This document shows positions 35,957 through 52,622 of a stretch of DNA of 64,000 bases, piece by piece. The translations under genes were made by a program, and so were the position numbers. Source of the DNA: Candidatus Tenderia electrophaga (GTDB lineage Bacteria; Pseudomonadota; Gammaproteobacteria; Tenderiales; Tenderiaceae); assembly GCA_001447805.1 (NCBI GenBank), contig CP013099.1, positions 558,001-622,000 of the forward strand. Reading direction: 5' to 3'. Under the pieces are notes generated by a model. It ran no database searches, was not told the DNA's origin, and was given only the letters and a program-made list of their open reading frames with translations. The first letter of the stretch is position 1. Every line of letters begins with the position of its first letter.

Positions 35957-37081
35957 ATGAGGGCTGTCAGCCAGTCTGAGATTATGAAGATTAATCAGAA
36001 AACACAAGTGGACGCAGGTTCCACACGTCAGGTTCAGGAGAGTGCTCAGAATCAAGTTTTAGAGCCCTTGCCCCCTTTGCAGGATCGCTTCGGCCGTACG
36101 TTCGACTATGTGCGGATTGCCGTCACCGAAAAGTGCAACCTTCGCTGTACATATTGCATGCCCGAAGAGGGTGTGGATTTTCAAGGCAAAGAAAAAATCC
36201 TGCACAGCGAGGAGACGCTGCGCATCATCGGTGTGCTTGCGCGCATGGGGGTCAAAAAGGTGCGGTTCACCGGCGGTGAGCCTCTGGTACGAAAAGACAT
36301 CGTCGATCTGATCGAAGGTTCGGTTGCCACCCCTGGTATCAAGGCCGTACACCTAACCACTAACGGATTACTTTTCGACCGCTATGCCCAGCGTCTACGG
36401 GATGCGGGATTGACCGGTGTCAATATCAGTCTCGATACGTTGGATGCTGACAAGTTCGTCCGTATCACTCGCCGCGAAGGCTTAGAAAAGGTTAAAGATA
36501 GCATTAAGCTTGCGCTCGATATGGGATTTCCTCGCGTCAAGGTCAATGTGGTTCTGATGCGTGGTTTCAACGAAGATGAGCTTAAAGACTTTACCGAGAT
36601 GGCCCGTGACCATCGCTTAACGGTGCGTTTTATCGAGTTCATGCCTTTCGACGGCCACCAGATTTGGGAGACTGGCGGACACTTTGCCAGCGCTGAAAGT
36701 TTGGTCAAGCAGATTGAAACTTTGTATCCCGGTATACAGCCTGCACCGGGAACCCGTACCGAGCACCACATCTTTCAAGGCAATGATCACCAGGGCAAGA
36801 TCGCCGTGATTCCGGCCTTTACCCGCAGCATGTGCGGTAACTGCTCCCGTATTCGCGTGACCGCAGACGGCAATATCAGAAATTGTCTTTATTCCGATAA
36901 GGAATACAGTTTGAGAGAGCTGATCCGCTCCGGTTGCAAGGACGATGAAATCGCCGATGTCTTTCGTAAGGCATTTGCCGAGAAAGAAAAAGATGGCTTT
37001 GAATCCAAGAAGGCTTCATCGGCACAACGTGTGGCGGTAGAGGATATCGGTCGGGTTAGTATGACCCAGATCGGCGGTTAG
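35957..37081 (+). CDS. moaA: GTP 3',8-cyclase (radical SAM) MoaA
   Basis: A 374-residue enzyme that, with MoaC, converts GTP to cyclic pyranopterin monophosphate. The radical-SAM cluster is CNLRCTYC (near residue 61) after the Tyr-Val-Arg segment, then FTGGEPLVRKD. The C-terminal second cluster is CGNCSRIRVTADGNIRNC, and the chain ends with the conserved Gly-Gly. The N-terminus is about 40 residues longer than in many homologues, but GGAGA six bases before ATG 35957 supports this start. First gene of moaA-moaC-moaD-moaE. Confidence 0.96.
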   Translation: MRAVSQSEIMKINQKTQVDAGSTRQVQESAQNQVLEPLPPLQDRFGRTFDYVRIAVTEKCNLRCTYCMPEEGVDFQGKEKILHSEETLRIIGVLARMGVKKVRFTGGEPLVRKDIVDLIEGSVATPGIKAVHLTTNGLLFDRYAQRLRDAGLTGVNISLDTLDADKFVRITRREGLEKVKDSIKLALDMGFPRVKVNVVLMRGFNEDELKDFTEMARDHRLTVRFIEFMPFDGHQIWETGGHFASAESLVKQIETLYPGIQPAPGTRTEHHIFQGNDHQGKIAVIPAFTRSMCGNCSRIRVTADGNIRNCLYSDKEYSLRELIRSGCKDDEIADVFRKAFAEKEKDGFESKKASSAQRVAVEDIGRVSMTQIGG

Positions 37082-37199
37082 TAGCCGCTGTTAATTATTT
37101 TTTCGCCTATGTAGACGTCGCGTGACACCCGGTCTGGAACAGATATCGTCCTGCGGCCAAGCATTTGCGTTCATACCACAGTTTAGAGAGTATTACAGA

Positions 37200-37679
37200 A
37201 TGAGTGAGTTGACCCATTTCAATGCTTCGGGCGAGGCCTACATGGTTGATGTTGGCGAGAAGTCCGAAACACAACGCGAAGCGATCGCAGAGGGGCGCAT
37301 TTTTATGGAGCCCGAGACGCTGGAAAAGATTGTTCAGGGGGATCACAAGAAGGGCGACGTTTTGGGGATCGCGCGCGTGGCGGGAATTATGGGTGCAAAA
37401 AAAACACCAGATTTGGTGCCGCTGTGCCACCCGATTATGCTCACCAACGTAGAGTTGGACTTGACTCCAGAGCCGGAAAAGAACGCCGTGTATTGCCAAG
37501 CGAAGGTGCGCTGTAAAGGCCAAACAGGCGTCGAGATGGAGGCGATTACAGCTGTCCAGGTGGCATTGTTGGTTATCTATGATATGTGCAAGGCGGTTGA
37601 CCGCGGTATGGTGATGGGCGGCATTGGCCTGTTGGCAAAATCAGGCGGTAAATCGGGCACATGGCGTCGTAGCGCATAA
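37200..37679 (+). CDS. moaC: Cyclic pyranopterin monophosphate synthase MoaC
   Basis: A 159-residue partner of MoaA. It starts [20 protein letters not shown], with AGAGAG about 10 bases upstream. Conserved segments are [27 protein letters not shown] and the C-terminal [20 protein letters not shown] with KAVDRGM. The reading frame is open 26 codons upstream but nothing there looks coding. Confidence 0.96.
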
Positions 37680-37700
37680 CTGGCTTGGGGAGTTGAGTAG

Positions 37701-37937
37701 ATGAATATTACAGTAAGGTATTTTGCCAGCATGCGCGACAAGATGGGGCGTGCTGAAGAAACCCTGACGATAGACGGCGATACCGTATCGGTGGCGGATG
37801 TATGGGCCAAAGTGGCTGCCGGCCAGCTGATCCCCGACAGCACCCTTATCGCTGTTAACATGGAATATACGGATGCAGATGCCGTGCTCAAAGATGGTGA
37901 CGAACTGGCGTTTTTTCCGCCTGTAACTGGAGGTTGA
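37701..37937 (+). CDS. moaD: Molybdopterin synthase sulfur-carrier subunit MoaD
   Basis: A 78-residue ubiquitin-fold protein ending FFPPVTGG. The C-terminal glycine is thiocarboxylated after MoeB-type adenylation and donates sulfur in molybdopterin synthase. GGGGAG lies eight bases before the ATG. It is 21 bases after moaC. Confidence 0.95.
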   Translation: MNITVRYFASMRDKMGRAEETLTIDGDTVSVADVWAKVAAGQLIPDSTLIAVNMEYTDADAVLKDGDELAFFPPVTGG

Positions 37938-37941
37938 TGAC

Positions 37942-38427
37942 GTGAAGGTAGTGGTTCAGGAGCAGCTGTTTGATCCGGGCAAGGAAGTCCGGGTCCATCA
38001 AGACAATCTGCCGAAAGGCAAGCATGGCGGTGTCGTGACTTTTGTCGGCACCATGCGGGACTATAACGACGGTGAAGATGTGGCCTCCATGGTTTTGGAG
38101 CACTATCCAGGCATGACGCAGAAGCACATTGAGCAGGTTTGTGATGAGGCGGCTCAGCGCTGGGAAATTGTCGACAGCCTGGTGGTGCATCGCTATGGCG
38201 AAATGCTGCCGAATGAACCCATCGTCTTGGTTGCCGTCTGGTCTGCACACCGTGCCAATGCCTTTGATGCTTGCCGCTTCATCATCAATTACTTAAAAGA
38301 ACGGGCCCCTTTTTGGAAGTGTGAGACCACGCCGGCCGGCGAAAAGCGTTGGGTAGAACACAACTCACGAGACGAGAAGGCCGAAGTCGCGGATGTCGAT
38401 GCTGTCACTGTCAAGCGTAGCGCGTAA
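37942..38427 (+). CDS. moaE: Molybdopterin synthase catalytic subunit MoaE
   Basis: A 161-residue subunit that inserts two sulfurs into precursor Z together with MoaD. It has the GVVTFVGTMRDYNDGE core, YPGMTQKHIEQ, the HRYGEM strand, AHRANAFDACRFIINYLKE and the catalytic lysine in APFWKCE. The start is GTG at 37942, with GGAGGT eight bases upstream overlapping the moaD end. Confidence 0.95.
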   Translation: MKVVVQEQLFDPGKEVRVHQDNLPKGKHGGVVTFVGTMRDYNDGEDVASMVLEHYPGMTQKHIEQVCDEAAQRWEIVDSLVVHRYGEMLPNEPIVLVAVWSAHRANAFDACRFIINYLKERAPFWKCETTPAGEKRWVEHNSRDEKAEVADVDAVTVKRSA

Positions 38428-38505
38428 TTTGAGTTGGGTGATTTTTGACGCATCACCGCCTGATAAAACTTGGGTTAGTGAGTTAACATCGGCGGCACTT
38501 GAGGC

Positions 38506-39150
38506 GTGAGAGAAAAAGAAAACACAACCCGGGTAATTTATGTTAGGCATGGCGAAACAGACTTTCCGCTCGATCGGATTTACTGTGACAGTCAAGAAGA
38601 CCCTGTCTTAAATCCTGCTGGAATAAGGCAAGCCGAGCAGGCGGCTGGGTATCTAGCCGATTCGGATATAGCGGCCATATATGCTAGTCCCTGTAGTAGG
38701 ACGCGGATGACGGCAGAGGTGATCGCCAGTTATCACAGTGATTGTCAGATTGCTTTCGATAAGTTTTTGATGGAGCGTCATTTTGGTGTCTGGGAGGGGC
38801 TCTATTTTGACGAGATTGAGTCTAAGTATCCGGTTCAGCACCAAGCGTGGAAACGCAACCAGGCGGCTTTCAAGCCAGAAGCGGGGGAGTCAGTGTACGA
38901 CCTGGCGGAGCGGGTCCGCCTCTCGCTGAAGCAAGTGATCGCCGATAACCAGGGCAAATGCATTGTTGTCGTGTCGCACGTCGGTCCAATTAGGACATTG
39001 ATTGCCTCAGCGGTGGGGATGCCGCTAGAAAGATACCGACAAATCAGTGTCGATCCAGCCTCGGTGAGTTGTGTTGATTACGGTAGAAGGCAGAACAATT
39101 TGATTCTACTGAATTTCCACGGTCGACACTGGGGCGGTGGTTGGGCATAA
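38506..39150 (+). CDS. Histidine-phosphatase (phosphoglycerate mutase-like) family protein
   Basis: A 214-residue cytoplasmic phosphatase. The phosphohistidine motif is VIYVRHGETDFP (near residue 14). The second His is in VVVSHVGPIRTL and the substrate arginine in SPCSRTRMTAE. Family members include GpmB and CobC, but the substrate cannot be assigned. The GTG start at 38506 has only a weak ribosome site. It lies 78 bases after moaE and might be read through from the moa operon. Confidence 0.82.
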   Translation: MREKENTTRVIYVRHGETDFPLDRIYCDSQEDPVLNPAGIRQAEQAAGYLADSDIAAIYASPCSRTRMTAEVIASYHSDCQIAFDKFLMERHFGVWEGLYFDEIESKYPVQHQAWKRNQAAFKPEAGESVYDLAERVRLSLKQVIADNQGKCIVVVSHVGPIRTLIASAVGMPLERYRQISVDPASVSCVDYGRRQNNLILLNFHGRHWGGGWA

Positions 39151-39263
39151 ATAAGCCCTAAACTCGCCAGGTGGTTGGCCGATAACCTATTTAGGACGAT
39201 AGGATATCGGCTTGTTAGGCATGGATGACCCGGAGCAGATTGTGTATTGTCGCTGGAAACAGC

Positions 39264-39324
39264 TTGACACCTCCTGGGCCGACGTTATACATTGTCTAAC
39301 AAGAAACAGTTTTGTGCTCGACAG
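39264..39324 (+). promoter_or_regulatory. Promoter and candidate operator upstream of the secreted protein
   Basis: TTGACA (39264-39269), 16 bases, TATACA (39286-39291). Directly after the -10 comes TTGTCTAAC (39292-39300) and, 15 bases on, GCTCGACAG (39316-39324). These resemble the half-sites TTGTTGAAC and GTTCGACAA in the promoter at 41347-41396. A second possible promoter, TTGACG-N17-TTAAAT, is at 39337-39365. Confidence 0.55.
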
Positions 39325-39439
39325 GGCAATGAACTATTGACGACGGTGTTATATGGATGTTAAATGTAACGCCAGGGTAGATTGAGGAGGAGATGTTGTC
39401 ATCTCTGCAACTTGATGATGTATTCAGGAGGCTTGAATA

Positions 39440-40357
39440 ATGAACAAGGCATATAAAGCAGCAAGTTCCATGGGTGCCGCTGCGCTCGTGCTTTCAGGTG
39501 CGGCGATGGCGGCAGCACCGGCAGACGGATTTGATCAGTGGACGGCGAGCAGTGGCGCTATCGCTTCAGACTGTCCCGCGGGTTTCACCTGTAGCGGTGA
39601 AGTGACCGGCGACGGTTTCTTTCAACGCCAGATTAGTGACGGTACCAACGACTATTTTCAGACCATCATTACCGATGCCGGTGTCAGTGGCACCGCAGGT
39701 AATATGAGCTTCTCTGATGAAAGCTTTGTCAGGACCGGTAATGTAGGCGGCTTGGCAGACAAGTCATCCATCACAGATAGCACTACCACTGGTGCCTTAG
39801 TCGAGACGTTCGATACCGCAACTACCCTGCTGACAGGTTGGGCCAGCACCAACGGCACTGATGACGAAGTGATGATTTATCAAGGTATTTCCGCGGTTGA
39901 CGACGGGGCTACCGCCGGGGGTGAAGATTTTCGCACGGACTTCTGGCTTGATCAGACGGGTACTCTAGGGTCTGTAGGCAAGATTATGCGCATCACCAGT
40001 GGGGTCGATATCCAGGAGCAAACCACCAGTACGGCTGCGCAGGTACAGGACTTCGTCTTGGTCGATCGCTCCGGGAGTGAAGTCGGCGTCGGCGGTGTTG
40101 ATATTGATGGTGACGCCAGCGATGACCTGACATGGCTTGCTGGCGAGAATGTGAAGGCTATCTGGATCGGCCAGGATATGTCGTTGATTGAAGGTGTCGG
40201 TCAAGAGTTCGGCTTCACTAGCTATACTAACGTGACCACAAGTAACGCAGTGAGTGATTTCAGTCTCGTTGATTCAACTGCGATCGACTGGGATACCACT
40301 GCACCACCTGCTGGTTGGGGCAGCCTTGCCACCGATGGTACGGGAGGTCCGTTCTAA
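39440..40357 (+). CDS. Secreted protein of unknown function
   Basis: A 305-residue protein I do not recognise. A clear Sec signal peptide (MNKAYKAASSMGAAALVLSG, ending near AMA/AAP) is followed by a region very rich in Thr, Ser, Gly and Asp, with almost no Lys, giving a strongly acidic mature protein. One Cys pair occurs early (SDCPAGFTCSG). The predicted pattern is beta-strand-rich. AGGAGG sits nine bases before the ATG, the promoter is strong and an intrinsic terminator follows, so it is likely made in quantity as its own transcript. It could be an exported or surface protein and may be a client of the envelope system encoded just downstream. Confidence 0.75.
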   Translation: MNKAYKAASSMGAAALVLSGAAMAAAPADGFDQWTASSGAIASDCPAGFTCSGEVTGDGFFQRQISDGTNDYFQTIITDAGVSGTAGNMSFSDESFVRTGNVGGLADKSSITDSTTTGALVETFDTATTLLTGWASTNGTDDEVMIYQGISAVDDGATAGGEDFRTDFWLDQTGTLGSVGKIMRITSGVDIQEQTTSTAAQVQDFVLVDRSGSEVGVGGVDIDGDASDDLTWLAGENVKAIWIGQDMSLIEGVGQEFGFTSYTNVTTSNAVSDFSLVDSTAIDWDTTAPPAGWGSLATDGTGGPF

Positions 40358-40388
40358 CGGTTAAGCAACAACCTAGAACAGGCACGTT

Positions 40389-40420
40389 AAAAGAGAGGGG
40401 CTTTATGCCCCTCTTTCTTT
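40389..40420 (+). terminator. Rho-independent terminator
   Basis: AGAGGGGC-TTTAT-GCCCCTCT followed by a T-rich tract, 32 bases after the stop of the secreted protein gene. It separates this gene from the LolA-like gene. Confidence 0.93.
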
Positions 40421-40478
40421 GTGTGGAAAAACGGGTTTTTGTTATTGTCTAAGGATAGTTGGTAAGGGTTATGTCGAT

Positions 40479-41282
40479 ATGAAAAAGAGCGCACTTTTTT
40501 TGTTCATTGTGTCGGTTTCGACCTTGCTATTCCCGGCTGCGTATGCAGAGCAAGATGTCAGGGAGATCATCAGGCATTGTGAATATAAAAATCCCGGAGA
40601 GGATCAGCGTTCATTGTTGACCATTACCTTGATCGATAAAGATGATAATGAGCGTGAAAATATCTATCGACGTCTATGGAAAAATTACCACGGCCAAGAA
40701 GGAGTCTTGGACAAGATGGTGCTGTTCACTGAATTTCCCCCGGATGCCAAGGGAACCGGATTCATGCGCTGGGGCTATAAGTCATCTCTCGATAAGATGG
40801 CGGATCAATGGCTGTATCTGCCGCATTTAAGAAAGGTGCGCAGAGTCTCGGTTAGGGACCCTGGAGACAGTTTTCTGGGCTCTGATTTAACCTATGGTGA
40901 TATCGAAGACCGCGATATCAGCGATGATGAATACAAGTTGCTTCGCCACGATGAGCAAGACGGGGGCGATATCTATACAGTTGAGATCAGGCCAAAAGAG
41001 CAAAATTCGATCTACAGCAAAAAAATCTCCTGGTATGCAAAGCGGTCTAGTTGGGATGACTGTGTCCGCGTTAAAACCGACTATTACGACCGGCAGGGCA
41101 ATCTTCTAAAGAAACAAAGGTTAACTTGGCAAAAGGTCGACGACGCGTGGATATGGGATCGCGTTACCGTCGAAAACGTGCAAACCAATCATAAGTCGAT
41201 ATTCACGGTCACCGATGTAAAAGTGAATATCGGGCTCGACGATGACATATTTACCGAGAGGGCATTAAGAAAGGGGCTTTAG
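40479..41282 (+). CDS. LolA-like periplasmic protein (outer-membrane lipoprotein-sorting type)
   Basis: A 267-residue exported protein. The ATG at 40479 starts MKKSALFLFIVSVSTLLFPA, a signal peptide ending at AYAEQ; AAGGG lies about 10 bases upstream. The mature part resembles LolA-like proteins that accompany MMPL/RND exporters (VLFTEFPPDAKGTGFMRWGY, QWLYLPHLRKVRRVS, SFLGSDLTYGDIEDRD). Such proteins have a half-barrel fold that holds acyl chains. The expected role is to carry a lipid or lipoprotein across the periplasm. It has its own terminator but lies immediately before the operon carrying the exporter. Confidence 0.82.
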   Translation: MKKSALFLFIVSVSTLLFPAAYAEQDVREIIRHCEYKNPGEDQRSLLTITLIDKDDNERENIYRRLWKNYHGQEGVLDKMVLFTEFPPDAKGTGFMRWGYKSSLDKMADQWLYLPHLRKVRRVSVRDPGDSFLGSDLTYGDIEDRDISDDEYKLLRHDEQDGGDIYTVEIRPKEQNSIYSKKISWYAKRSSWDDCVRVKTDYYDRQGNLLKKQRLTWQKVDDAWIWDRVTVENVQTNHKSIFTVTDVKVNIGLDDDIFTERALRKGL

Positions 41283-41307
41283 TCAGAATTTTAACTCACT
41301 ACTCAGA

Positions 41308-41339
41308 GGCGTTTCCCGGGGGTTAGAAACGCCTTTTTT
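41308..41339 (+). terminator. Rho-independent terminator after the LolA-like gene
   Basis: GGCGTTTC (41308-41315) pairs with GAAACGCC (41326-41333), followed by six T residues. Confidence 0.93.
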
Positions 41340-41346
41340 ATGGTCC

Positions 41347-41396
41347 TTGACACGACTGGGATTAATGTATAACATTTGTTGAACAGTGTTCGACAA
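41347..41396 (+). promoter_or_regulatory. Promoter and palindromic operator of the RHH-exporter operon
   Basis: TTGACA (41347-41352) and TATAAC (41368-41373) are spaced 15 bases. The palindrome TTGTTGAAC-AGT-GTTCGACAA (41376-41396, one mismatch) lies just after the -10, over the likely transcription start. This is a typical place for autorepression by the ribbon-helix-helix-like protein encoded 18 bases further on. Confidence 0.65.
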
Positions 41397-41414
41397 CTGA
41401 CGTGCGAGGACAAA

Positions 41415-41825
41415 ATGTCTAAAGAGATAGGGCAGGCAGGAAAGGCCAGGCGAGACAAAGCGGTTTCGATGGCAATGAAGCGCAAAGAGGAATACCTCGG
41501 GGCGCGGGTACCCAAGGAGTTGCGTGATAGGGTGATCCAAACCGCAAAAGAGATGGGAATCCCCGTTTCCATCCTGATTCGAAATACCCTGGAAGACGCT
41601 TTTGGGATGGGACCACCGGCGCGTGCCCCATCCTCAGCGAGTAAAGAAACGCCCGCCGACGCCGATATATTTAACACGGTTCTCGGATGGGAAAAGATCC
41701 AGTTAAACAAAACCGTCTCATGTTTAGGCTGCGGAACGGTGCTGCAACAAGGTAAAAAGGCCTTTCTCGGGTTAGGGGCTTCAGAGCCGGTTGTGATTTG
41801 TGATGCCTGCAAAGGGCATGTCTAA
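41415..41825 (+). CDS. Small protein with RHH-like DNA-binding domain and zinc-binding tail
   Basis: A 136-residue protein. Residues about 25-65 (KRKEEYLGARVPKELRDRVI, then TAKEMGIPVSILIRNTLEDAF) fit a ribbon-helix-helix fold: a short strand followed by two helices. After an Ala/Pro/Ser linker, residues about 103-133 have CLGCGTVLQQGKKAFLG and then CDAC, a Cys4 zinc-ribbon pattern. I do not recognise the combination as a named family. The start at 41415 has GAGG about 7 bases upstream. As first gene of the operon behind a palindromic operator, it is the likely regulator, possibly responsive to metal or redox state through the cysteines. Confidence 0.72.
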   Translation: MSKEIGQAGKARRDKAVSMAMKRKEEYLGARVPKELRDRVIQTAKEMGIPVSILIRNTLEDAFGMGPPARAPSSASKETPADADIFNTVLGWEKIQLNKTVSCLGCGTVLQQGKKAFLGLGASEPVVICDACKGHV

Positions 41826-41845
41826 CAAGGATGTGGTGACATGGC

Positions 41846-43327
41846 ATGATAAAGCAGTTATGGCAGTTTATCGTCGCTGTCGCATGCTGTTCGGTCATAT
41901 CATCAACAAGCGCGCAAGAGACTGATCTTAACCTTGACTTCGATTCCCTTTTTACCGAGACGGTGCAACAACAGGAAGAGGAATCCAGTCTCTGGTCTGA
42001 TTTACGTCTGAGCGGCTACCTCAAAAACGAAACGGCCTATCGGCTGCGCGAGCCCCGTTCGATTACCAAAATTCGCAATATCGGCTATCTAAACGCTCAA
42101 TATCCCTTCGGAAACAGGGTCGATTTTAATTTTACCGGTTGGGCCTACTACGACCTTGCTTATGATCTGTTTAATTACGAAACGATCGCCGCAAGGCTCG
42201 AACGAAACTCCGAAGAACCCCTTGCCTTTGTCGAAAATCTGGCGCAAGAGAAAGACAGCCCGGTTGCCCAGATCCGCGAGCTATATTTCGATATGGCTTA
42301 CGATACGCTGGACCTTCGAATTGGTAAGCAGTACGTCATTTGGGGAGTGTTGGAAGGCGTCAGAGTCGTTGATGAAATCAATCCCATGGACTTTCGCGAA
42401 TTGATCCTTCCGGACCTGATTGACTATAGAATTTCACTGTGGACAGTAAAGCTCGATTATTATGCCAATGCCGGCGATGTGCAGCTGTTGTGGATCCCAG
42501 ACCTGCAATTCCACGAGCCCGCGCCCCCCGGCTCTGAATGGGAGTTATTGCAGGAAGTGCCGGGTACCCGCAAACCAGAAAGCTGGACGCTGGAAAACTC
42601 GGAATTCGGTATCAAGTTTGACACTTACCTGGCTAACACTGAATTATCATTTAGCTATTTTTATACTTGGGACGACTTCCCGGTCATATTTAGAACGGTA
42701 AAAATCGGTGCCAGCGCAAATGAGGGGCCAGTCTTTTTTCCTTCGTACACCAGAATATCCATGTATGGAGCGACCGCGGTTCGCCCGGTAGGCGAATATA
42801 TTTTAAAAGGCGAGCTGGCCTATGTAGAGGACAAGTTTTTTGGTCGCAGTAACGTGGCGGACGCTAACAACGACGGATTTGTCGACACTAATGGTGAGGC
42901 GCAAAAGGACCACATCAGATGGGGGATGGGGGTAGATTTTCTCGCGTTCGGCTGGGATGTCGCAGTGGGCGCCACGCAGTGGATAATTCTCGACTATGAA
43001 CCGAACCTTATCCAGGATCGGGTCGACACCTCGTACAATCTGTTTGTGCGGCGTGAATTTCCACAATATGCGCTGACTGTTCAGGGGTTGTGGATATTTC
43101 TTCAGCAAATGAACGAATCCTACATGAAGCCAAAAGCAACATTCCAATTATCGGATAGGTTCCAAATTGCCGTTGGCCTGGATTTGTTTGATGGTGAGAA
43201 GTCAGATTTTGGGTTGTCGACCGTAACTGCACAGGGGCAGTTTAATGCTGATGTTCAGCGCGCCCAATTTCTGGGGAATTTTCACAATAACGACAGAATA
43301 TTTTTTGAGTTTAAATATTCGTTTTAG
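41846..43327 (+). CDS. Outer-membrane beta-barrel protein, DUF1302-like
   Basis: A 493-residue exported protein. The signal peptide ends near SSTSAQETD. The remainder consists of alternating amphipathic strands with many Tyr, Trp and Phe (LRLSGYLKNETAYRL, RVDFNFTGWAYYDLAY, LRIGKQYVIWG). It ends FFEFKYSF with a terminal Phe, the outer-membrane insertion signature. The arrangement resembles DUF1302-type proteins that accompany RND/MMPL exporters and LolA-like partners, but I cannot confirm the family. It is followed after 16 bases by the exporter. A segment DANNDGFVDTNGE looks like a calcium-binding loop. Confidence 0.75.
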   Translation: MIKQLWQFIVAVACCSVISSTSAQETDLNLDFDSLFTETVQQQEEESSLWSDLRLSGYLKNETAYRLREPRSITKIRNIGYLNAQYPFGNRVDFNFTGWAYYDLAYDLFNYETIAARLERNSEEPLAFVENLAQEKDSPVAQIRELYFDMAYDTLDLRIGKQYVIWGVLEGVRVVDEINPMDFRELILPDLIDYRISLWTVKLDYYANAGDVQLLWIPDLQFHEPAPPGSEWELLQEVPGTRKPESWTLENSEFGIKFDTYLANTELSFSYFYTWDDFPVIFRTVKIGASANEGPVFFPSYTRISMYGATAVRPVGEYILKGELAYVEDKFFGRSNVADANNDGFVDTNGEAQKDHIRWGMGVDFLAFGWDVAVGATQWIILDYEPNLIQDRVDTSYNLFVRREFPQYALTVQGLWIFLQQMNESYMKPKATFQLSDRFQIAVGLDLFDGEKSDFGLSTVTAQGQFNADVQRAQFLGNFHNNDRIFFEFKYSF

Positions 43328-43343
43328 GGGTGAGAGCTAGATC

Positions 43344-45806
43344 GTGGCTGCATATTATAGATTTGTAACGACCTACCCAAAGCTGATTATTGGCATGGTG
43401 ATGCTTGTTACGCTGGCTTTGGCGTCACAGATTCCAAGCTTGGAATGGGAGACCGATGCGCGAGTTTATATGCCTAAAGGGCATCCGGCGATAGAATATG
43501 ACGAAAAAATCGAAAATCTATTTGGTGCAAAGGACGCCATTATCATTGCAATCGTTAACCGAGACAAGACGATTTTCAATGCCGAAACACTTGCCAAGAT
43601 TCAGCGTGTCACCGAAAAAATAGCAAAACTACCCTCCGTCGTCGCTAATCGGGCGCTGGACGTCGCATCTCCGACTACAGTGACTTTATTCGAAGGTGAC
43701 GAAGAGAGCGTCGGGGCGGTGCGGCTGATGCCGGTGGCCCCAGTTAGCCAGACCGACATTGAGAATATAAAGCAAAAGGTTTCGGATCATGAAGATATCC
43801 TCAAAGGCAATCTGATATCCGCAGACGGCAAAGCCGCCATGATTCGGGCCAAGATAGAGGAAGGCGCGGCGAATCGTTACCAAGCTTATTGGCAGATCAA
43901 AGGCATCTTGGCGGCAGAATCGGGTGGTGGTGACGCTTGGGGCGGATGGCAGGGTGGCGACTGGGGTCAGAGCGGCGGCGCGGCGCAAACTGACGAAGGA
44001 CGAACCGGTGATGCTCCCGAAGACGCTTGGAAACAATGGCAGACCGCTGAGACAACGGACGACTATGACGATAACGGTGACCAATTTTATGTCTCAGGTC
44101 GGCCAGCGATAGAAGTAACCTCCGGGCTCAATGCGCTGGAAGACATCAAAGTGATGATTCCGCTGCTGCTTGCGACTATGGCTGTGGTCCTTTTTATGAT
44201 ATTCAAGACTGCGCGCGGCGTGTTGCTGCCGCTCAGCGTAATGATAGGAGCCATTATCTGGACTCTGGGGATAATGGCAATCCTTAAGGTGCCGATGTAT
44301 ACCATATCCACCATGCTGCCGGTCATTTTGGTCGCCGTAGGTATCGGTGACTCGGTGCACTTTTTGAGCAATTATTACAATAAGGTGCTCGAAGACCCCT
44401 ACAGAAAAAGCACTGAGATTGTGGGTGCAGTGATTACCATGCTAAGTCGACCGCTGATCACCACATCGCTTACGACTGGGATTGGGTTTATGGCGCTTTT
44501 GTTTGCCGAGATGCCACCATTTAAGCTGTTCGGCCTATTCACTGTATTGGGTATCTCGATCAGCTGGTTTTTAACAGTCACCTTTGTAGCGGCGATGTTG
44601 GTCATTTTAAAACCCAAGGTGGCGGATTACCTGGAGCGGAAAAGATCGCTGCGTGTTCACGACGGGCAGGACGTCTTGACGCGCGCATTGGTGTCCGGCG
44701 GGATTATGATTACCAGGAATAGCCGTTCGGCCGCGCTGATCGCAATCATTATTGTTGTGGCCATGTCTATAGGCGCTTCGCGTCTATACGTCAATTCCAG
44801 CTGGATGAGCGATTTTAAGCCGGAAAGTGAGGTATCACAGGCCACCGACCTCATTAATGAGAAATTTGACGGTTCTATTACCCTCAACGTGGTGTTGGAG
44901 GCGGACAAAAAAGACGCCCTCAAGTCGCCCGAGCTGCTGAATAAGATTGACCGTCTTCAGCGCTATGCAGAGACCCTGCCGCTGGTTGGCGATAGTTTGT
45001 CGATGGTGGATTATTTAAAGAGCTTAAATAAGTCGTTGCACTCAATGCAGCAGGCCTACTACCGCATTCCCGATAGCCAACGTGAAATCGCCGAGGGGCT
45101 TTACCTGTATTCGGTTTCCGGGCAGCCAGAGTTATTGGACGAGATGGTAGATTACGATTATCAGCGCGCCAATATTGTCGTTATGATTAAAACCGATGAA
45201 ACTTTACATCTTAGGCGAATTATCGATTCGATTGACGCCTATGCCAACGATGTGTTTGCGGGTTCAGGCGTGCAAATCAACTACGCCGGCCCCGGCAACA
45301 ACTCCTATGTTTGGGCCGATCTCCTGATTGATAGTCAGACTGTCGCGCTGTTGTTTTCGAAAATCGCGATTTTTTTGATGGCGTTGTTATTGCTGCGTTC
45401 AGTTATCGGCAGTGTTGCTATCGTATTGCCGGTTGTGGTGACCACCACAATCGTCGCCGGCATGGCTGGATGGCTGAGCATACCGATGGATGTTTCAACC
45501 GTCCTTGCTGCCGGTATCGCCATTGGGGTCGGTGTGGATTTCGCCGTCCATTACGTCTTCCGCTATAAGATCCACAGGGACGCCGGGCGAACTCATGAAG
45601 AAGCTGTTGCCGGCACTATGAAAGGTGTGGGTAGAACCATCGTCTTCAACGCAGTAGTGGTATCCGCCGGGTTTGCGGTATTGCTGCTGTCGCAATTTCC
45701 GCCCCACGTGAAACTGGGTGTGTTTGTGATGGTCTATATGGTTATCAGCTGTATAGTTGCGCTTTATCTGCTGCCGCTGATTTTGCGTAAGTTTTCCGTG
45801 CACTAG
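43344..45806 (+). CDS. MMPL/RND superfamily exporter
   Basis: An 820-residue inner-membrane transporter of the COG1033 type, shorter than AcrB. An N-terminal helix (LIIGMVMLVTLALASQIP) is followed by a periplasmic loop, helices at about residues 265-425, a short loop, then the second half (helix near 470, periplasmic loop, helices about 670-815). GIGDSVHFLSNYY and GIAIGVGVDFAVHYVFRY are the charged relay-type motifs. These exporters move lipids and other hydrophobic molecules. The first periplasmic loop carries an unusual Gly/Trp/Asp insertion (about residues 191-250, DAWGGWQGGDWGQSGG). GTG start with GGTGAG upstream. Confidence 0.9.
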   Translation: MAAYYRFVTTYPKLIIGMVMLVTLALASQIPSLEWETDARVYMPKGHPAIEYDEKIENLFGAKDAIIIAIVNRDKTIFNAETLAKIQRVTEKIAKLPSVVANRALDVASPTTVTLFEGDEESVGAVRLMPVAPVSQTDIENIKQKVSDHEDILKGNLISADGKAAMIRAKIEEGAANRYQAYWQIKGILAAESGGGDAWGGWQGGDWGQSGGAAQTDEGRTGDAPEDAWKQWQTAETTDDYDDNGDQFYVSGRPAIEVTSGLNALEDIKVMIPLLLATMAVVLFMIFKTARGVLLPLSVMIGAIIWTLGIMAILKVPMYTISTMLPVILVAVGIGDSVHFLSNYYNKVLEDPYRKSTEIVGAVITMLSRPLITTSLTTGIGFMALLFAEMPPFKLFGLFTVLGISISWFLTVTFVAAMLVILKPKVADYLERKRSLRVHDGQDVLTRALVSGGIMITRNSRSAALIAIIIVVAMSIGASRLYVNSSWMSDFKPESEVSQATDLINEKFDGSITLNVVLEADKKDALKSPELLNKIDRLQRYAETLPLVGDSLSMVDYLKSLNKSLHSMQQAYYRIPDSQREIAEGLYLYSVSGQPELLDEMVDYDYQRANIVVMIKTDETLHLRRIIDSIDAYANDVFAGSGVQINYAGPGNNSYVWADLLIDSQTVALLFSKIAIFLMALLLLRSVIGSVAIVLPVVVTTTIVAGMAGWLSIPMDVSTVLAAGIAIGVGVDFAVHYVFRYKIHRDAGRTHEEAVAGTMKGVGRTIVFNAVVVSAGFAVLLLSQFPPHVKLGVFVMVYMVISCIVALYLLPLILRKFSVH

Positions 45807-45822
45807 ATGGGCGCAAGTGTTG

Positions 45823-46707
45823 ATGCTCAGAACACTCTTTTGTCTATTGTTATTGCTTTATCTGCCGCCTGCGTTTTCTGAGCCAGGACGTTTGAGCGTC
45901 GGTGTCTATCTAGGGTTCCACGATCCGGCCCTGGAAGACCTCAATCAGCACGAGTTCAAATCCCCAATCGCCGGGACCGCCGAGGTTATCCTCGGGACCG
46001 GAACTAACGATAGTAGTGCCGTCCTATTTCCCAACCCACTGCCTGAATTCACGCCGGGCGCCAATGGCGGACTTGAGTTTATGTGGGAGCTCAGTGACAG
46101 ATATGACTTTATCGTCGGCGGCGGTACCTGGGAGGTTACGTCGCGCGCCCTGGCTCAAGGCGGTCTGTTTTTGCAGGGGCAGCCAGCCGACGTCTTTAAC
46201 GAGCGCACTGCCAAGCTGTCTTATAACGAGTTTTATTTTGGTCTGCGCTATAACCTGATTAATTCAACGGAAAAGTTTAAGGGCTATTATCGCCTCACCC
46301 TAAACGAAGTTTTTGATATTGATTATCGCGAGGATTTGATTTTTTTGTTTACGTCGGGGGATGCGGCAGGAGTAAAAAAATCGATTATCCTTCAATCACA
46401 GGCCACGGGTTTGTTAATGCTGCAGCCCGGTATTGGCATGGAATACGCGTTTAACGATTTGATATCGGTCGGCGTTGAGGCCTCCTACCTGTTCGGGTTT
46501 CGCCGCATAACCTTGCGTGATGGTAGATCAAGTGTCGACTTCCTTTCTACGGATAACCTGTCTTTGTGGTTGCCGCAGCGGGTCGATCCGCAAAGCGGCG
46601 ATTTGCAGTATTTGGCGCAGCGGCCCGCCGATGACGAAGATTATTCCAAGATCCGCTTGAGTTTCGATGGCTGGAAAGTGCTGTTTAAAATGAATATCCA
46701 TTTCTGA
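45823..46707 (+). CDS. Probable outer-membrane beta-barrel protein
   Basis: A 294-residue exported protein of unknown family. The signal peptide is MLRTLFCLLLLLYLPPAFSE. The mature part has strand-type alternation (RLSVGVYLGFHD, YDFIVGGGTWEVTS, YNEFYFGLRYNLIN) and ends LFKMNIHF with a terminal Phe, consistent with a small barrel of roughly 8-12 strands. The ATG at 45823 is used; a GTG two codons earlier is possible. Its TGA overlaps the ATG of the TPR gene (TGATG), so the two are translationally coupled. Confidence 0.7.
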   Translation: MLRTLFCLLLLLYLPPAFSEPGRLSVGVYLGFHDPALEDLNQHEFKSPIAGTAEVILGTGTNDSSAVLFPNPLPEFTPGANGGLEFMWELSDRYDFIVGGGTWEVTSRALAQGGLFLQGQPADVFNERTAKLSYNEFYFGLRYNLINSTEKFKGYYRLTLNEVFDIDYREDLIFLFTSGDAAGVKKSIILQSQATGLLMLQPGIGMEYAFNDLISVGVEASYLFGFRRITLRDGRSSVDFLSTDNLSLWLPQRVDPQSGDLQYLAQRPADDEDYSKIRLSFDGWKVLFKMNIHF

Positions 46708-49436
46708 TGAACCGTACATTCGCTCATCGCCCGGTTCTATTGCTGCGCACTATGGTGGTCCTGGTGCTGTTGTATACGTCAAGCGCCGTGTCGCAGGAGT
46801 TGTTGCCGGAAGTTGATACCGAATCCATGGTGCCGGCGGTCGAAAAGTTGATTGAAGCGGGTAGGCAAGCACTGCGCGCGGGTGATATCGAGGCCGCTGC
46901 GCGCGCCTATAGTGAGGCTCTGCGTCTGCAACCGAAAACGCCCGAAGCCCTGTACCAAATGGCGATCTACTATTTCCGCAAGCAGGATTACGTGCGTGGT
47001 TTCGAATTGATTCGTAAGGCTATCGAGGTTGCGCCCAACAATCCGTTTCCGCGGCTGGCATTGGCCAAAGGATTGGGTGAAGTGGGTGACTTCGAGGCTG
47101 CCATCGCGCAGTACCAGCAGATTCTAGACATGCTCGATCCTGATTCTCGCCCGGCCCAAGCCGCGGCACTTGAAATGAATTTGCTCAAGTTCAGGTTGGC
47201 GACGCGCGATCGAGATAGGGAGCAGTTGCAGGAAATCGGCGATTTGCTGGTAAGCAGATATTCAAACAATCCCTCTGTATTGGAGCTGGTTGCCAACGTT
47301 TATGTGCGTGCCGGCTTCTACAACCAAGCCAGGGATATCTATTTTTCGCTTTTGAATATGATGCCAGACAATCCCCAGATCGAGTTTTACCTTGGAGATC
47401 TCTACGAAGCTATGCGTGATCCAGAAAAAGCCGTCATCCATTACGAGCGCGCCATGGACAAGGGCCAGGGAACACCCCTGGAGCAATCTGCACACATTCG
47501 GGCGGCCATCTTGAAGGCGATTTTGCTACTGCAGCAAGGTGAGAAGGACTTGGCCCAGCAACACTTCCTTGAAGTGCTGGAGTTGGATGAAAATAACGTG
47601 ATCGCCAACATGAACGCGGCGGCCTATTTTCATGAGCAGAGAGACTTTGAATCGGCCAGGCAGGCTTATCAGCGCGTCATCGAGCGCCAGCCAGATAATT
47701 TGGAGGCGCATTACCGTTTGGCCATCGTGTCGCTGGATATGGGGGATTCGGTTAACGGAGTGCGTCACCTCGATTACGTACTGGCGCGCGCTCCGGATTC
47801 ACCTATCGGTCAAGCCGCACAAGACACCATGGGGCGGGTGCAGCAACGCTTCGATGTGGAAGTTATTCGGCAAGTGATCGCCGATGAGCAAATGCTGGCC
47901 CAACAGCTGCGCGAAGATCCTGATGATCCCGAGGCGCTGACCGCCATGGGCGATGTGCTGTTGCGCCAGCAACGTCGCGAACAAGCGCTGGAGTATTTCG
48001 AGCGCGCCATGCAGGCCGCCCCCAATTATGGCGCGGCGTTTGTAAAAGCAGGGCGGGCCTATGACGAGGCGCGCCAACACGCCAAGGCAAAGGAGGCCTA
48101 CCAGCGCGCCCTGGCGTTGCTGTCTGATGATGACAAGGCGGCGCAGATCAGGGAACGGCTGGTGGTGGTGTCCGGCAATCTATATCTCGACGACAAGGAA
48201 TTCGAAAAGGCAGAGGAAAATTTTCAGCAAGCCTATCAGATCTTAAGGGCCAAGGAGGATGTGGATGATGTCGATTTGGCCGAGGTGTTATGGGGGCTTG
48301 CCATGTCGAACGCACAGCAGGGCGATCTGGAGGAGGCCGCAACATGGTACGAAGAATTGATCGCCGTTGTGCCGGGACACTTGGGTGCCAGGATCAACGC
48401 GGCCTTCGTCTATGAGCAGCTGGAGGAAGAGGAAAAGGCCAGTGCGCACTATAACGCGGTCAGACTGGCCGACAACGCACCACCCGCTATGAGGCAGCGT
48501 GCCGAAGATCGCCTGGATTATATTCGACGTCAAACCAACGGTTTCAGTTACATCGTTGGTTACGTTATGGGGTTTGACGATAATCTTAATAGCGCGCGCA
48601 GCAACAAGTTTTTCGAATATCGGTCCGACCTATTTGCGTCGGCGATCTATCGCTACAAATTGAGAAAGGGGATGAAACTCTCGGTAACGGTTTCACCGTC
48701 GTACTCGATTTATCATCGCGCCGAGTTCGACTTTTTCAATTTTACCGTCAGCCCCGATTTATTGTTCGAAAAATGGGGCTACGACTGGACCGTGGGGATG
48801 AGCCGGAACAGTCAGTCCAGTGTGCTCAGGCCCGAACAGAGCTCGACGGTCACCGATACCTTCAGTGCGGATGCCAGTTGGCTCACGGACGACAAGGTGG
48901 GGTATCGTGTCGGGCTTGATTACCGCGGTTTCGGCTCGACCCAAAACCCCTTCTTCGATGCCAATACTTATAATCTCGGCCTCAGCGCCAATTTCGCCGG
49001 TCCCGATAACAGCTTTCTGAGTTACGGTTATAGCCTCACGGTCAATAACAACAAGAACCCCTTGGGCAGCGATTACGCCTATACCGGTCATGGTCTCAAC
49101 GGGCGTATCGATAAGCGCATCGACGAACGCCTGACCGGCTACATCAGCGGACGTTTGGGGTTGAATTTGTACAAGAATGCCGATTCATCCACCAATTTTC
49201 AGCGCCAGCGGCGAACCTTCAGCCTTGGCTTCGGTACAGGGCTTACGTTCCGCATCGATTCATGGGTGAGCTTCTTTACCAGTTACAATTTCACCACGCA
49301 GTATGCCAATCTGCCGGTCGGGGTTATCTTGACGGAACAGCAGTCGGCCGAAGTGCCGGAGAGGGTTCGACAAAGCAGCTCGGTGGGCAGCTTTGTGCGC
49401 CATTCCATCAGCGTCGGCATTCGCATGAATTTCTGA
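46707..49436 (+). CDS. TPR protein with C-terminal outer-membrane barrel
   Basis: A 909-residue exported protein. After a signal peptide (ending SSAVSQELL), residues about 45-610 are tetratricopeptide repeats (AGDIEAAARAYSEALRLQPK, YKAM-type units such as EQALEYFERAMQAAPNYGAAF). Residues about 612-909 have strand-rich sequence (SYIVGYVMGFDDNLNSARSN, VSPSYSIYHRAEFDFFNFTV) ending SVGIRMNF with a terminal Phe. The TPR-then-barrel plan is that of BcsC, PgaA and Slam-type exporters, in which the TPRs handle a substrate in the periplasm and the barrel passes it out. It is the last gene of the operon, and I do not recognise a closer family. Confidence 0.82.
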   Translation: MNRTFAHRPVLLLRTMVVLVLLYTSSAVSQELLPEVDTESMVPAVEKLIEAGRQALRAGDIEAAARAYSEALRLQPKTPEALYQMAIYYFRKQDYVRGFELIRKAIEVAPNNPFPRLALAKGLGEVGDFEAAIAQYQQILDMLDPDSRPAQAAALEMNLLKFRLATRDRDREQLQEIGDLLVSRYSNNPSVLELVANVYVRAGFYNQARDIYFSLLNMMPDNPQIEFYLGDLYEAMRDPEKAVIHYERAMDKGQGTPLEQSAHIRAAILKAILLLQQGEKDLAQQHFLEVLELDENNVIANMNAAAYFHEQRDFESARQAYQRVIERQPDNLEAHYRLAIVSLDMGDSVNGVRHLDYVLARAPDSPIGQAAQDTMGRVQQRFDVEVIRQVIADEQMLAQQLREDPDDPEALTAMGDVLLRQQRREQALEYFERAMQAAPNYGAAFVKAGRAYDEARQHAKAKEAYQRALALLSDDDKAAQIRERLVVVSGNLYLDDKEFEKAEENFQQAYQILRAKEDVDDVDLAEVLWGLAMSNAQQGDLEEAATWYEELIAVVPGHLGARINAAFVYEQLEEEEKASAHYNAVRLADNAPPAMRQRAEDRLDYIRRQTNGFSYIVGYVMGFDDNLNSARSNKFFEYRSDLFASAIYRYKLRKGMKLSVTVSPSYSIYHRAEFDFFNFTVSPDLLFEKWGYDWTVGMSRNSQSSVLRPEQSSTVTDTFSADASWLTDDKVGYRVGLDYRGFGSTQNPFFDANTYNLGLSANFAGPDNSFLSYGYSLTVNNNKNPLGSDYAYTGHGLNGRIDKRIDERLTGYISGRLGLNLYKNADSSTNFQRQRRTFSLGFGTGLTFRIDSWVSFFTSYNFTTQYANLPVGVILTEQQSAEVPERVRQSSSVGSFVRHSISVGIRMNF

Positions 49437-49452
49437 CCCGGGGCCGTGGTTC

Positions 49453-50214
49453 TCAGTCGCGCAGGCCGTTGAAGGCGCGTACCGCCCAGGCCAGTGATAC
49501 GCCGGCGAAGACCAGCATGACCGTGGCGCCGAAGATGTAAGTATTCATGTCAGGGCTGCCAACCAATACGGCGCGCACCGATTCCACCGCATAGGTGATG
49601 GGATTGATCACTGAGATGGTCTCGATCCAGGCCGGCATGAAGGGCTTGGGCACCATGGCAGTGGACAGAAACATCAAGGGCAGGGTCATCAGATTGCCGA
49701 TCATCACCAAGGGTTCTTCGCGTTGCAGGATGATGGCAAAGCCGTTGGACAGGGCCGCCAGTGCCACGCCCAGCAGAAAGATGCTGATCATGGCCAGCAG
49801 TAGATTCAGCGGCCCCAGGTTGAGCTGGGCGCCGAACAGCCAGGCCACCAGCATGATGATCAGGGTCTGCAATACCACCTGCACCGCTGAGTGCATCACC
49901 CGGCTGAGGACGATGGCCACCCGCGACACCGGCGAGGCCAGCATCTTGTCCACGGTGCCGGCGGTGATCTCGCGCAACAGGCTCACGCCCGACCACGAGG
50001 AGCCAAACAGGGCCGTCATCACCAGTACACCGGGGACGAAAAAGTCTATATAGCTGCCACCGCCGGTAGGCGGCGCCTGGACAAAGTTCTTGAACAGCTG
50101 AGTGAAGATGATCAGCCACAACAGCGGTTGGATCAGGGTGAACAGGGTCCACATCGGCATGCGCAATGTGATCTTGGTGTATTTCAGAAATAGATGCCAG
50201 GTATCTGCGAACAC
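49453..50214 (-). CDS. ABC-2 type transporter permease
   Basis: A 253-residue inner-membrane permease of the DrrB/ABC-2 export class. It starts with GTG at 50214 after GAGAGAG. Six helices are visible, including FTLIQPLLWLIIFTQLF near the N-terminus and VMLVFAGVSLAWAVRAF at the end, with the signature VFLSTAMVPKPFMPAWIETI and INPITYAVESVRAVL. It forms an exporter with the ATPase 51 bases upstream. Substrate unknown; relatives export drugs, polyketides or glycans. Confidence 0.92.
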   Translation of the reverse strand: MFADTWHLFLKYTKITLRMPMWTLFTLIQPLLWLIIFTQLFKNFVQAPPTGGGSYIDFFVPGVLVMTALFGSSWSGVSLLREITAGTVDKMLASPVSRVAIVLSRVMHSAVQVVLQTLIIMLVAWLFGAQLNLGPLNLLLAMISIFLLGVALAALSNGFAIILQREEPLVMIGNLMTLPLMFLSTAMVPKPFMPAWIETISVINPITYAVESVRAVLVGSPDMNTYIFGATVMLVFAGVSLAWAVRAFNGLRD

Positions 50215-50265
50215 GGTAATTCTCTCTCGATGGTGGGTCTTGGCGGCGGAGTTTCTGCGCCACAG

Positions 50266-51489
50266 CTATTTATTCTTGTCGGTCCCCTGCCGTTGCTGCC
50301 GATCGCCCTGTTCCTTGGGCCACTGTTGATCGGATGGTGCGGCGCTGCCGGTCTTGGTTTCAGCCGCGTTGCCTGTGTCGTCCTTTTGCCAGTCTTGCCA
50401 TTGCTGTTGCCAGCCGGCCTTCTCTTCCTCGGAGCCAGTCTCCTCGATCTTCTCTTGCCACTTTTCCCAATTCTTTTGCCACTTGCCACCACCGCCGCCT
50501 TTGCCGGCCCATTGGTGCCACCATTCCTCGCCGCCTTCTTCCTCCGTCGCGTCTTCCAGCGTGCTGCCGGTGTATTTGAGAAAGACATCGTCCAGGGTGG
50601 GATGGGCCAGGGACAAAGTCTCGATGACCAGCCCCATCTCCTCGGCCAGGTGGACGAACTTGGGCACGGCTGTGCCGCCGTGGTCGACATAGATATGCAG
50701 CTTGTCGTTCTGCCACACCACGTCGTTGACGTCCGGGTCGTCATGCAGGGCATAGGTGAATTCGCCCACCTTGGGGTCCTGGCTGTCGAAATTGAGAATC
50801 ACTGCGTCGCCGTGAATGGCGTCTTTTAGATGCTCGGCGGCATCGATCACTTGGATCCGGCCTTGGTTGATAATCGCCACGCGGTGGCTGAGGTGGTCCG
50901 CCTCTTCCAGATAGTGGGTGGTGAGCAGGATGGTCAGGCCGTGTTCCCGGTTCAGCGTTTCGATGAGTCGCCACAGGTTCTGGCGGCTTTTGATGTCCAG
51001 GCCCAGGGTGGGCTCATCCAGGAATAGCAGCTGGGGGCGGTGGATCAGGGCCGTGGCGATGTCCAGCTTGCGCCGCATACCGCCGGAATAGGTCATCACC
51101 TGGCGGTCCAGGGCGCCGTCCAGCTCGAAATAGCCGGCCAATTCCTCGATGCGGGCGTCAATATCGCGCCGCGCCATGCGGTAAAGCTGGCCCTGTAGCA
51201 CCAGGTTCTCGCGCCCGGTGAGGAAATAATCCACGCCGGTTTGTTGCGCCACCAGGCCGATGGCGGCGCGGACTTTTTCGGGATCGCGGTCGACATTGTG
51301 GCCCGCTACCTCAACGTCGCCCTCGTCGAAACCGCTGAGCGTGGTCAGCACGCGGATGGTGGTGGTCTTGCCCGCCCCGTTTGGGCCCAGCAGTGCCAGG
51401 ATCTCCCCCTGCTCTACCTTCAGCGAGAGATCGTCGATGGCCTTGTGGCCGCCCGCAAAAATCTTGGTTAAGCCGCTGACTCGGATCAT
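50266..51489 (-). CDS. ABC transporter ATP-binding protein with Trp-rich C-terminal tail
   Basis: A 407-residue DrrA-type ATPase. Walker A LLGPNGAGKTTTIRVL, the signature YSGGMRRKLDIATAL, Walker B LLFLDEPTLGLD and the switch His in LLTTHYLEEADHL are all present, followed by the usual DUF4162-type domain ending near LDDVFLKYTGSTLEDA. The family normally stops about there (310-330 residues). This protein continues for about 90 residues of charged low-complexity sequence with nine or more Trp (EEWWHQWAGK, KWQKNWEKWQEK, GWQQQWQDWQKDD). The ATG at 51489 is used; a TTG nine codons earlier is open. Confidence 0.92.
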   Translation of the reverse strand: MIRVSGLTKIFAGGHKAIDDLSLKVEQGEILALLGPNGAGKTTTIRVLTTLSGFDEGDVEVAGHNVDRDPEKVRAAIGLVAQQTGVDYFLTGRENLVLQGQLYRMARRDIDARIEELAGYFELDGALDRQVMTYSGGMRRKLDIATALIHRPQLLFLDEPTLGLDIKSRQNLWRLIETLNREHGLTILLTTHYLEEADHLSHRVAIINQGRIQVIDAAEHLKDAIHGDAVILNFDSQDPKVGEFTYALHDDPDVNDVVWQNDKLHIYVDHGGTAVPKFVHLAEEMGLVIETLSLAHPTLDDVFLKYTGSTLEDATEEEGGEEWWHQWAGKGGGGGKWQKNWEKWQEKIEETGSEEEKAGWQQQWQDWQKDDTGNAAETKTGSAAPSDQQWPKEQGDRQQRQGTDKNK

Positions 51490-51608
51490 AATCACATCGA
51501 ACTCTGTTTCGGACAATAGCCCGGCATTATAGCCTACTGACGTGCAAGTGATAGATCTGGTTGGTATTTTCTGCTGTTAGAATAGCGGCGCCAATGGAGA
51601 AAGTATAA

Positions 51609-52622
51609 ATGCGTATATTGGGAATCGAAACCTCCTGCGACGAAACCGGGCTTGCCGTCTATGACAGCGAACGCGGGCTGCTGGGCCACGCCCTGCACAG
51701 CCAGATCGAGCTGCATCTGGATTACGGCGGCGTGGTGCCCGAGCTGGCCTCCCGCGACCATGTGCGCAAGACCCTGCCGCTGATCGATCGGGTGCTGGCC
51801 CAAAGCGGCCTGGCCAAGACCGACATCGACGGCATCGCCTATACCGCCGGTCCCGGCCTGATCGGCGCCCTGCTGGTGGGCGCCGCCATCGGCCGCAGCC
51901 TGGCCTGGACCTGGGGCGTGCCGGCGGTCGCCGTGCACCATATGGAGGGCCATCTGCTGGCACCGATGCTGGAAGCCGAAGCGCCGGATTTTCCCTTCGT
52001 TGCCCTGCTGGTGTCGGGCGGCCATAGCATGTTGGTGCGGGTCGACGGGGTGGGGCGCTATGCCCTGCTGGGGGATACGGTGGACGATGCTGTCGGCGAG
52101 GCCTTCGACAAGACCGCCAAGCTGTTGGGGTTGGGCTATCCGGGCGGTCCGGCCATCTCGAGGCTGGCCGAGCAGGGCGATCCTGAACGTTTCCAGTTTC
52201 CCCGCCCCATGACCAACCGGCCGGGCCTGGATTTCAGCTTCAGCGGCCTCAAGACCTTCGCTGTCAATACCCTGGCCCAAAATGGCGATGATGCGCAGAC
52301 CAAGGCCGACATCGCCCGCGCCTTCGAGGAGGCCGTGGCTGAGACCATGGCCATCAAATGCCGCCGCGCCCTGGAACATACCGGCCTGAAACGCCTGGTG
52401 CTGGCCGGTGGCGTCAGCGCCAACCGCCGCCTGCGTCGGCGGCTGCAACGGCTGGCCGAGGAGCGTGGCCTGCGGTTGTATTATCCGCGCGCCGAATTTT
52501 GCACCGACAACGGCGCCATGATCGCCTATGCCGGCTGCCTGCGGCTTGCCGCCGGGCAGACCGAGCCCCTGGTGATCCAGGCCCGGGCGCGCTGGCCGCT
52601 GGAAAGTCTGACTCCCGCTTAG
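51609..52622 (+). CDS. tsaD: tRNA N6-threonylcarbamoyladenosine transferase TsaD
   Basis: A 337-residue enzyme that transfers threonylcarbamoyl to A37 of ANN-decoding tRNAs. It begins [20 protein letters not shown]. The metal-binding HHMEGHLLA, the nucleotide-site [11 protein letters not shown] and [19 protein letters not shown] are typical. TsaC, which makes the threonylcarbamoyl-AMP it uses, is encoded at 60833-61387. Confidence 0.98.

Follow-up and report, generated by a model that had tools for sequence, protein, structure and literature searches.

The AmeABCD system of Castellaniella defragrans brings together DUF1302, LolA/DUF1329 and HAE3 proteins, and deletion of ameABCD lowers monoterpene tolerance (PMC6394551). 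In Pseudomonas putida, PP_0765 and PP_0766 are needed for growth on Tween20 and are predicted to form complexes with a periplasmic protein and a resistance-nodulation-division (RND) transporter (PMC10866462), and the export of phthiocerol dimycocerosate (PDIM) by mycobacteria needs DrrABC, MmpL7 and LppX (PMC11539658). The passage of hydrophobic cargo beyond the MMPL/HAE3 pump, via the periplasm and outer membrane of Gram-negative bacteria, is largely an open question. Here, we describe a gene set of Candidatus Tenderia electrophaga located in a stretch of 64,000 nucleotides (contig CP013099.1, positions 558,001 to 622,000), hereafter called the window. Seven genes are collinear on its + strand over 39440-49436, encoding a secreted protein (secr), a LolA-like carrier, a ribbon-helix-helix (RHH) zinc-ribbon regulator (RHH-Zn), a DUF1302 barrel, an MMPL transporter, a second barrel (OMP) and a tetratricopeptide repeat (TPR) protein ending in a barrel (TPR-barrel). 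An ATP-binding cassette (ABC) pair of the ABC-2 type follows them (Table 1).

Conservation of the gene set

Compared across genomes, these genes form one conserved unit, far beyond chance. The RHH-DUF1302-MMPL-OMP-TPR order was found again in the majority of some 30 related loci, belonging to about ten bacterial families; in 18 loci it was kept wherever the contig reaches, the RHH gene being absent from a single one. The LolA-like and secr genes are located upstream of this core in nearer relatives, and the loci of other families hold most of the set, one family being devoid of the RHH gene. In one genome, the MMPL gene sits in a second cluster. The MMPL orthologues form a clear group with 47-75% identity, all other MMPL paralogues being below 30%, and OMP homologues were found in 9 of the 10 genomes tested. 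MMPL, DUF1302 and LolA-like are the most conserved parts, secr and TPR-barrel the least. The parts are therefore neither scattered nor failing to co-occur, which strongly supports, as a conserved system, the trans-envelope system proposed by an initial annotation of this DNA. An open reading frame (ORF) check also recovered all seven genes where that annotation had placed them, five of them in the tight run it described (intergenic gaps of 20 bases, 16 bases and about 10-16 bases, the last two genes overlapping by 1 base), with hydrophobic N-terminal signal-type sequences visible on all products except the regulator and the exporter, i.e., on secr, LolA-like, DUF1302, OMP and TPR-barrel. The starts of three genes were corrected to ATG 40479 (LolA-like), 41415 (regulator) and 45823 (OMP), which are best supported by orthologue alignments and signal peptides and are probably the true ones.

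Table 1. Features of the locus, with positions in the window.
Feature	Position	Strand	Evidence
secr promoter, TTGACA 39264-39269, overlapped by a putative operator, the inverted repeat GTTATACA-T-TGTCTAAC at 39284-39300	39264..39300	+	Alignment in related genomes
secr, putative secreted protein of all-beta type, 305 aa, from a multicopy family	39440..40357	+	Co-occurrence with the system; AF2 model
Terminator-like hairpin 3' of secr	40392..40416	+	10-pair stem then T-rich tail; aligned in related genomes
LolA-like periplasmic carrier, signal peptide	40479..41282	+	PF17131 164.7 bits (cut-off 30); DUF1329 35.4 bits (cut-off 23.1)
Regulator promoter: TTGACA 41347; operator half-sites TGTATAAC 41366-41373 and GTTGAACA 41378-41385	41347..41385	+	
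RHH regulator with CxxC...CxxC zinc-ribbon-like end	41415..41825	+	Conserved Cys and RHH core
DUF1302 outer-membrane beta-barrel	41846..43327	+	PF06980 53.2 bits (cut-off 23.2)
MMPL transporter, RND and putatively HAE3-type, 820 aa, Asp336 and Asp732 in transmembrane (TM) segments	43344..45806	+	PF03176 112.3 bits, passed
Trp-rich low-complexity insert of MMPL, residues ~194-247, first periplasmic domain between TM1 and TM2	43923..44084	+	
OMP, second outer-membrane barrel, 294 aa	45823..46707	+	Weak OMP_b-brl
TPR-barrel: TPR repeats ~45-600, C-terminal 14-strand barrel ~612-909	46707..49436	+	TPR families; AF2 model
DrrB-like ABC-2 permease	49453..50214	-	PF01061 107.6 bits
DrrA-like ABC ATPase, Trp-rich C-terminal tail (~50266-50541)	50266..51516	-	TIGR01188 drrA 321.3 bits (cut-off 312.45)

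An ABC-2 pair and matching Trp-rich arms

Although its seven genes stood, the initial annotation did not list the complete set: it overlooked the ABC-2 pair at 49453-51516, which lies downstream of, and convergent to, these genes. Against the drrB model, the permease reached 124 bits, under the cut-off of 223. Its orthologues in other genomes share 58-86% identity with it. A permease orthologue was then looked for in 44 genomes, of which 23 bear the system, whereas 21, chosen as near the window in TypA similarity, do not; it was present in 23/23 bearers versus 0/21 non-bearers (Fisher p ~5e-13). In several bearers, the pair is located away from the operon, usually beside tsaD (loci L187, L190, L191, L192 and L193). 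Because the orthologue follows the system even where unlinked, the ABC-2 pair belongs to the system by phylogenetic profile and not by position alone. In the window, tsaD also adjoins the pair (reading frame 51609-52622).

At the level of sequence, the tail of the ABC ATPase and the insert of the MMPL transporter carry the same kind of Trp-rich sequence. This is illustrated by a tryptophan content of 11% in the tail versus 0.6% in the ATPase core, and of 9.3% in the insert versus 0.9% elsewhere in the MMPL protein. The insert is present in every orthologue spanning it and reaches up to about 330 aa; the tail is present in all 23 orthologues, and the length of both varies greatly. The tail opens with a conserved EWW.QWAGKGGGGKW-like stretch, and much the same repeat, W[QE]GN[EK]WV.xDGxxK, builds the MMPL insert in some genomes and the ATPase tail in another. 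A scan of the fetched loci revealed no third protein with such an arm. The C-terminal region of DrrA is required for PDIM export and was proposed to bind the substrate (PMC11539658); hence, a cargo-binding role is proposed here, in which the Trp-rich arms could bind or gather cargo. Their presence on two unrelated pumps is an unusual feature that makes this hypothesis directly testable.

The secr family and its putative regulation

The secr family shares the phylogenetic distribution of the system. Among 369 genomes of the class, the RHH-Zn gene was found in 21, secr in 24 and both in 20 (Fisher p ~4e-28), meaning that secr occurs in 20/21 RHH genomes versus 4/348 others. Three of the four genomes with secr only carry the OMP of the system, lacking the RHH gene alone. 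A phylum-wide sample of 399 yielded secr and OMP in the own genome alone. According to a TypA tree of 30 genomes, a small sample and a single gene, the bearers do not form one clade and require at least five state changes, so that shared ancestry as the sole cause of this co-occurrence appears less probable.

The protein itself had no match in Pfam, NCBIfam or the PDB. Its AlphaFold2 (AF2) model (pLDDT 76) is all-beta, with about 17 strands and a disordered C-terminal tail, and retrieved no PDB match at E<=0.001; BURRH entries of the PDB that the secr profile matched were set aside as repeat artefacts. An alignment of 33 sequences displays a signal peptide, a conserved Cys pair and a recurrent W...FG..P-type end, this last motif being loose (18/33 by a first pattern, 23/33 by a laxer one). 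Lys and Arg are scarce, and Gly, Thr and Asp abundant. Many genomes contain several secr copies, some of them two-domain. The own genome has a second, unlinked secr-family gene (C1:1008079-1009080; L128:8077-9081) amid unrelated housekeeping-type genes, and another locus (L123, G010:C10:345000-360000) encodes tandem two-domain secr proteins (664 and 739 aa), with a two-component system and a protein of secretin-like N-terminus in the vicinity.

The secr and regulator promoters, which both score among the best promoter-like sequences of the region, share a putative operator half-site. Indeed, the window contains two copies of the 9-mer GTTATACAT, for 0.15 expected, precisely at these two promoters. 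The exact GTTATACATTGT is found once in the 3.76 Mb genome, the operator site is retained in several relatives, and two of them (L035 and L037) carry a perfect palindrome, ATGTATAACATTGTTATACAT, at the regulator promoter. The four Cys and the RHH core of the regulator are invariant in 17/17 aligned sequences. The natural reading would be that the RHH-Zn protein controls secr and itself. A strong terminator-like hairpin follows secr, which is therefore probably transcribed separately.

Carrier, transporter and outer-membrane parts

Profile searches, as suggested by the initial annotation, recovered LolA_like, DUF1302, MMPL and numerous TPR models above cut-off and a weak OMP_b-brl for the second barrel, secr and the regulator being below every family cut-off. 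The signal peptide of the LolA-like protein is devoid of a lipobox cysteine, and its PDB matches are 9tp6 (E=2.4e-37), 3bk5 and 4z48. The MMPL protein scored 219.9 bits against TIGR00921 (HAE3), under the cut-off of 351.9; in 16 orthologues, D732 is invariant and D336 nearly so.

The AF2 model of the C-terminal domain of the TPR-barrel protein contains 14 strands (pLDDT 85), its closest PDB folds being CymA and OmpG by Foldseek, with BcsC at rank 45. No DUF560/PF04575 match was obtained in 17 barrel sequences at E<=0.1. Strand number separates the type XI secretion system (T11SS, 14) from PgaA (16) (PMC8406197), and the modelled barrel may work like that of the T11SS. The layout of TPR plus barrel, for which the initial annotation named a BcsC/PgaA/Slam plan, has Slam-like 14 predicted strands, not 16, but no DUF560 match. 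In one genome, a second cluster (L115, G304:C49, 1-11540) has the order DUF1302-OMP-TPR-barrel-TPR-barrel, with very large TPR proteins of 1257 and at least 1628 aa.

Around the set (window positions 36001-50000), the G+C content falls to 49-57% versus about 61% for the chromosome. A mobile island, suggested by a G+C as low as about 49-53%, was rejected: in family members, the set is likewise flanked by moaA and a histidine-phosphatase gene, and therefore looks old in the family. A toxin-antitoxin assignment was also rejected, the RHH protein being under the CopG_antitoxin cut-off and without a toxin partner.

A proposed export route and its alternatives

With a probability of about 0.5, the system could be considered as a dedicated trans-envelope export line that brings hydrophobic or amphiphilic, lipid-like cargo to the surface. 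AmeABCD, the Tween20 genes of P. putida and PDIM export are the basis on which we infer the cargo, its direction and the sequence of its transfers. The DrrAB-like ABC-2 transporter would carry the cargo over the inner membrane, from which the proton-driven MMPL transporter, with D336 and D732 kept, would then lift it out. The LolA-like protein would ferry it through the periplasm to DUF1302, OMP and TPR-barrel, which would take it and hand it over to the surface, where secr proteins could accept it, form a coat or be exported along with it. Binding or gathering of cargo would fall to the Trp-rich arms, the ABC arm on the cytoplasmic face and the MMPL arm on the periplasmic one, and the RHH-Zn protein would repress secr and its own gene. 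Several points weigh against this route. No lipid biosynthesis gene is linked to the locus, and the proposed direction is drawn from relatives that serve growth on hydrophobic substrates besides efflux. The two arms face different compartments, the cytoplasm for the ABC tail and the periplasm for the MMPL insert, their shared role being presumed; the comparison by TypA controls weakly for shared ancestry, and secr is without recognizable fold, any lipid binding by it being hypothetical.

The main rival to lipid-type export is the secretion of secr itself, which would reach the periplasm via Sec and then pass the outer membrane by way of the TPR-14-strand barrel in a Slam/T11SS-like manner, MMPL, LolA-like and ABC parts providing acyl or lipid modification or energy. 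The co-occurrence of secr with the system is in line with this proposal, as is its multicopy, scattered and at times two-domain family, which resembles a family of clients; in many loci secr is directly upstream of the LolA-like gene, its composition and its recurrent disordered tail fit as well, and the TPR domain followed by 14 strands corresponds to the T11SS plan. However, the barrel is unmatched by DUF560/PF04575, the all-beta model of secr gives no clear sign of the C-terminal 8-strand barrel found in known T11SS cargo, the C-terminal motif of secr is loose, and the T11SS needs no MMPL, LolA-like, DUF1302 or ABC part, so that this proposal is kept as a tentative one. The initial annotation had also regarded the secreted protein as a possible client: co-occurrence and the shared operator lend support to this idea, its nature as cargo and the direction remaining conjectural, and the abundance it ascribed to the protein is not readable from sequence.

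Uptake or efflux of environmental hydrophobic compounds for tolerance, on the model of AmeABCD or of the Tween20 genes of Pseudomonas plus accessory barrels, would account for the core families, which are the same, and a plain MMPL-LolA-DUF1302 trio is indeed encoded in the own genome. It appears unlikely, as the ORFs of the locus include no gene for AmeC (COG4447), a part of AmeABCD, genes of hydrocarbon catabolism were not observed next to it, and a constant DrrAB-like exporter together with a dedicated secreted family are not features of the described systems. Polysaccharide export around the TPR-barrel, on the BcsC/PgaA plan, would agree with the TPR-plus-barrel layout and with BcsC being among the Foldseek matches; it was rejected as highly improbable on the strand number, 14 rather than 16, and on the lack of a glycan synthase in conserved loci.

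Returning to lipid-type export, one may speculate, with less confidence, on a new class of Gram-negative export machines of about nine parts, where ABC-2 and MMPL would act on a common cargo, one on each side of the inner membrane, via matching Trp-rich disordered arms, followed by a LolA-like carrier and three outer-membrane proteins, with the secr family. The set provides a complete candidate parts list, from the ABC and MMPL pumps to the outer-membrane barrels, plus co-inherited secreted proteins that can be assayed.

Comparison with known systems

No description of the whole set, the Trp-rich arms or the secr family was found in the literature of an open-access library. The initial annotation had presented the system as a candidate new one; this does not apply to its MMPL, LolA-like and DUF1302 core, already described in AmeABCD and the P. 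putida genes and with an analogue in DrrABC-MmpL7-LppX, and is narrowed to the full set with second barrel, TPR-barrel, ABC pair, regulator and secr, of which this library yielded no description.

With type XI secretion (Slam/NilB, DUF560; PMC8406197), the system shares a periplasmic TPR domain, a barrel of 14 strands and a family of secreted proteins that occurs along with it, whereas it has no DUF560 match, many more TPRs and a cargo candidate of another fold. The P. putida genes PP_0765/PP_0766 and PP_2018/PP_2019 likewise combine a DUF1302 and DUF1329 pair, a periplasmic protein and an RND-type transporter with a hydrophobic substrate, Tween20; unlike here, they form two separate loci, and the further parts of the system are not reported there (PMC10866462). 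The likeness to DrrABC-MmpL7-LppX resides in a DrrA-type ABC exporter, with a C-terminal extension of DrrA needed for PDIM export, an MMPL transporter and a carrier for lipids. The fold of LppX is LolA-like. In contrast to this mycobacterial route, the system has one permease instead of DrrB and DrrC, no lipoprotein carrier, Gram-negative outer-membrane parts and no linked lipid synthesis genes.

A trio of the known AmeABCD-like kind, MMPL-LolA-like-DUF1302 without OMP or TPR-barrel, is located elsewhere in the own genome (L044, C1:2503000-2522000, 8224-12561), with 27%, 29% and 21% identity to the MMPL, LolA-like and DUF1302 proteins of the window, respectively. As in AmeABCD, a DUF1302 outer-membrane protein, a LolA-superfamily periplasmic protein and an RND transporter, here a putative HAE3-type one, are gathered in one cassette (PMC6394551). 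The remainder of the set described here, i.e., OMP, TPR-barrel, the RHH-Zn regulator, the Trp-tailed ABC pair and secr, comes in addition to what AmeABCD contains.

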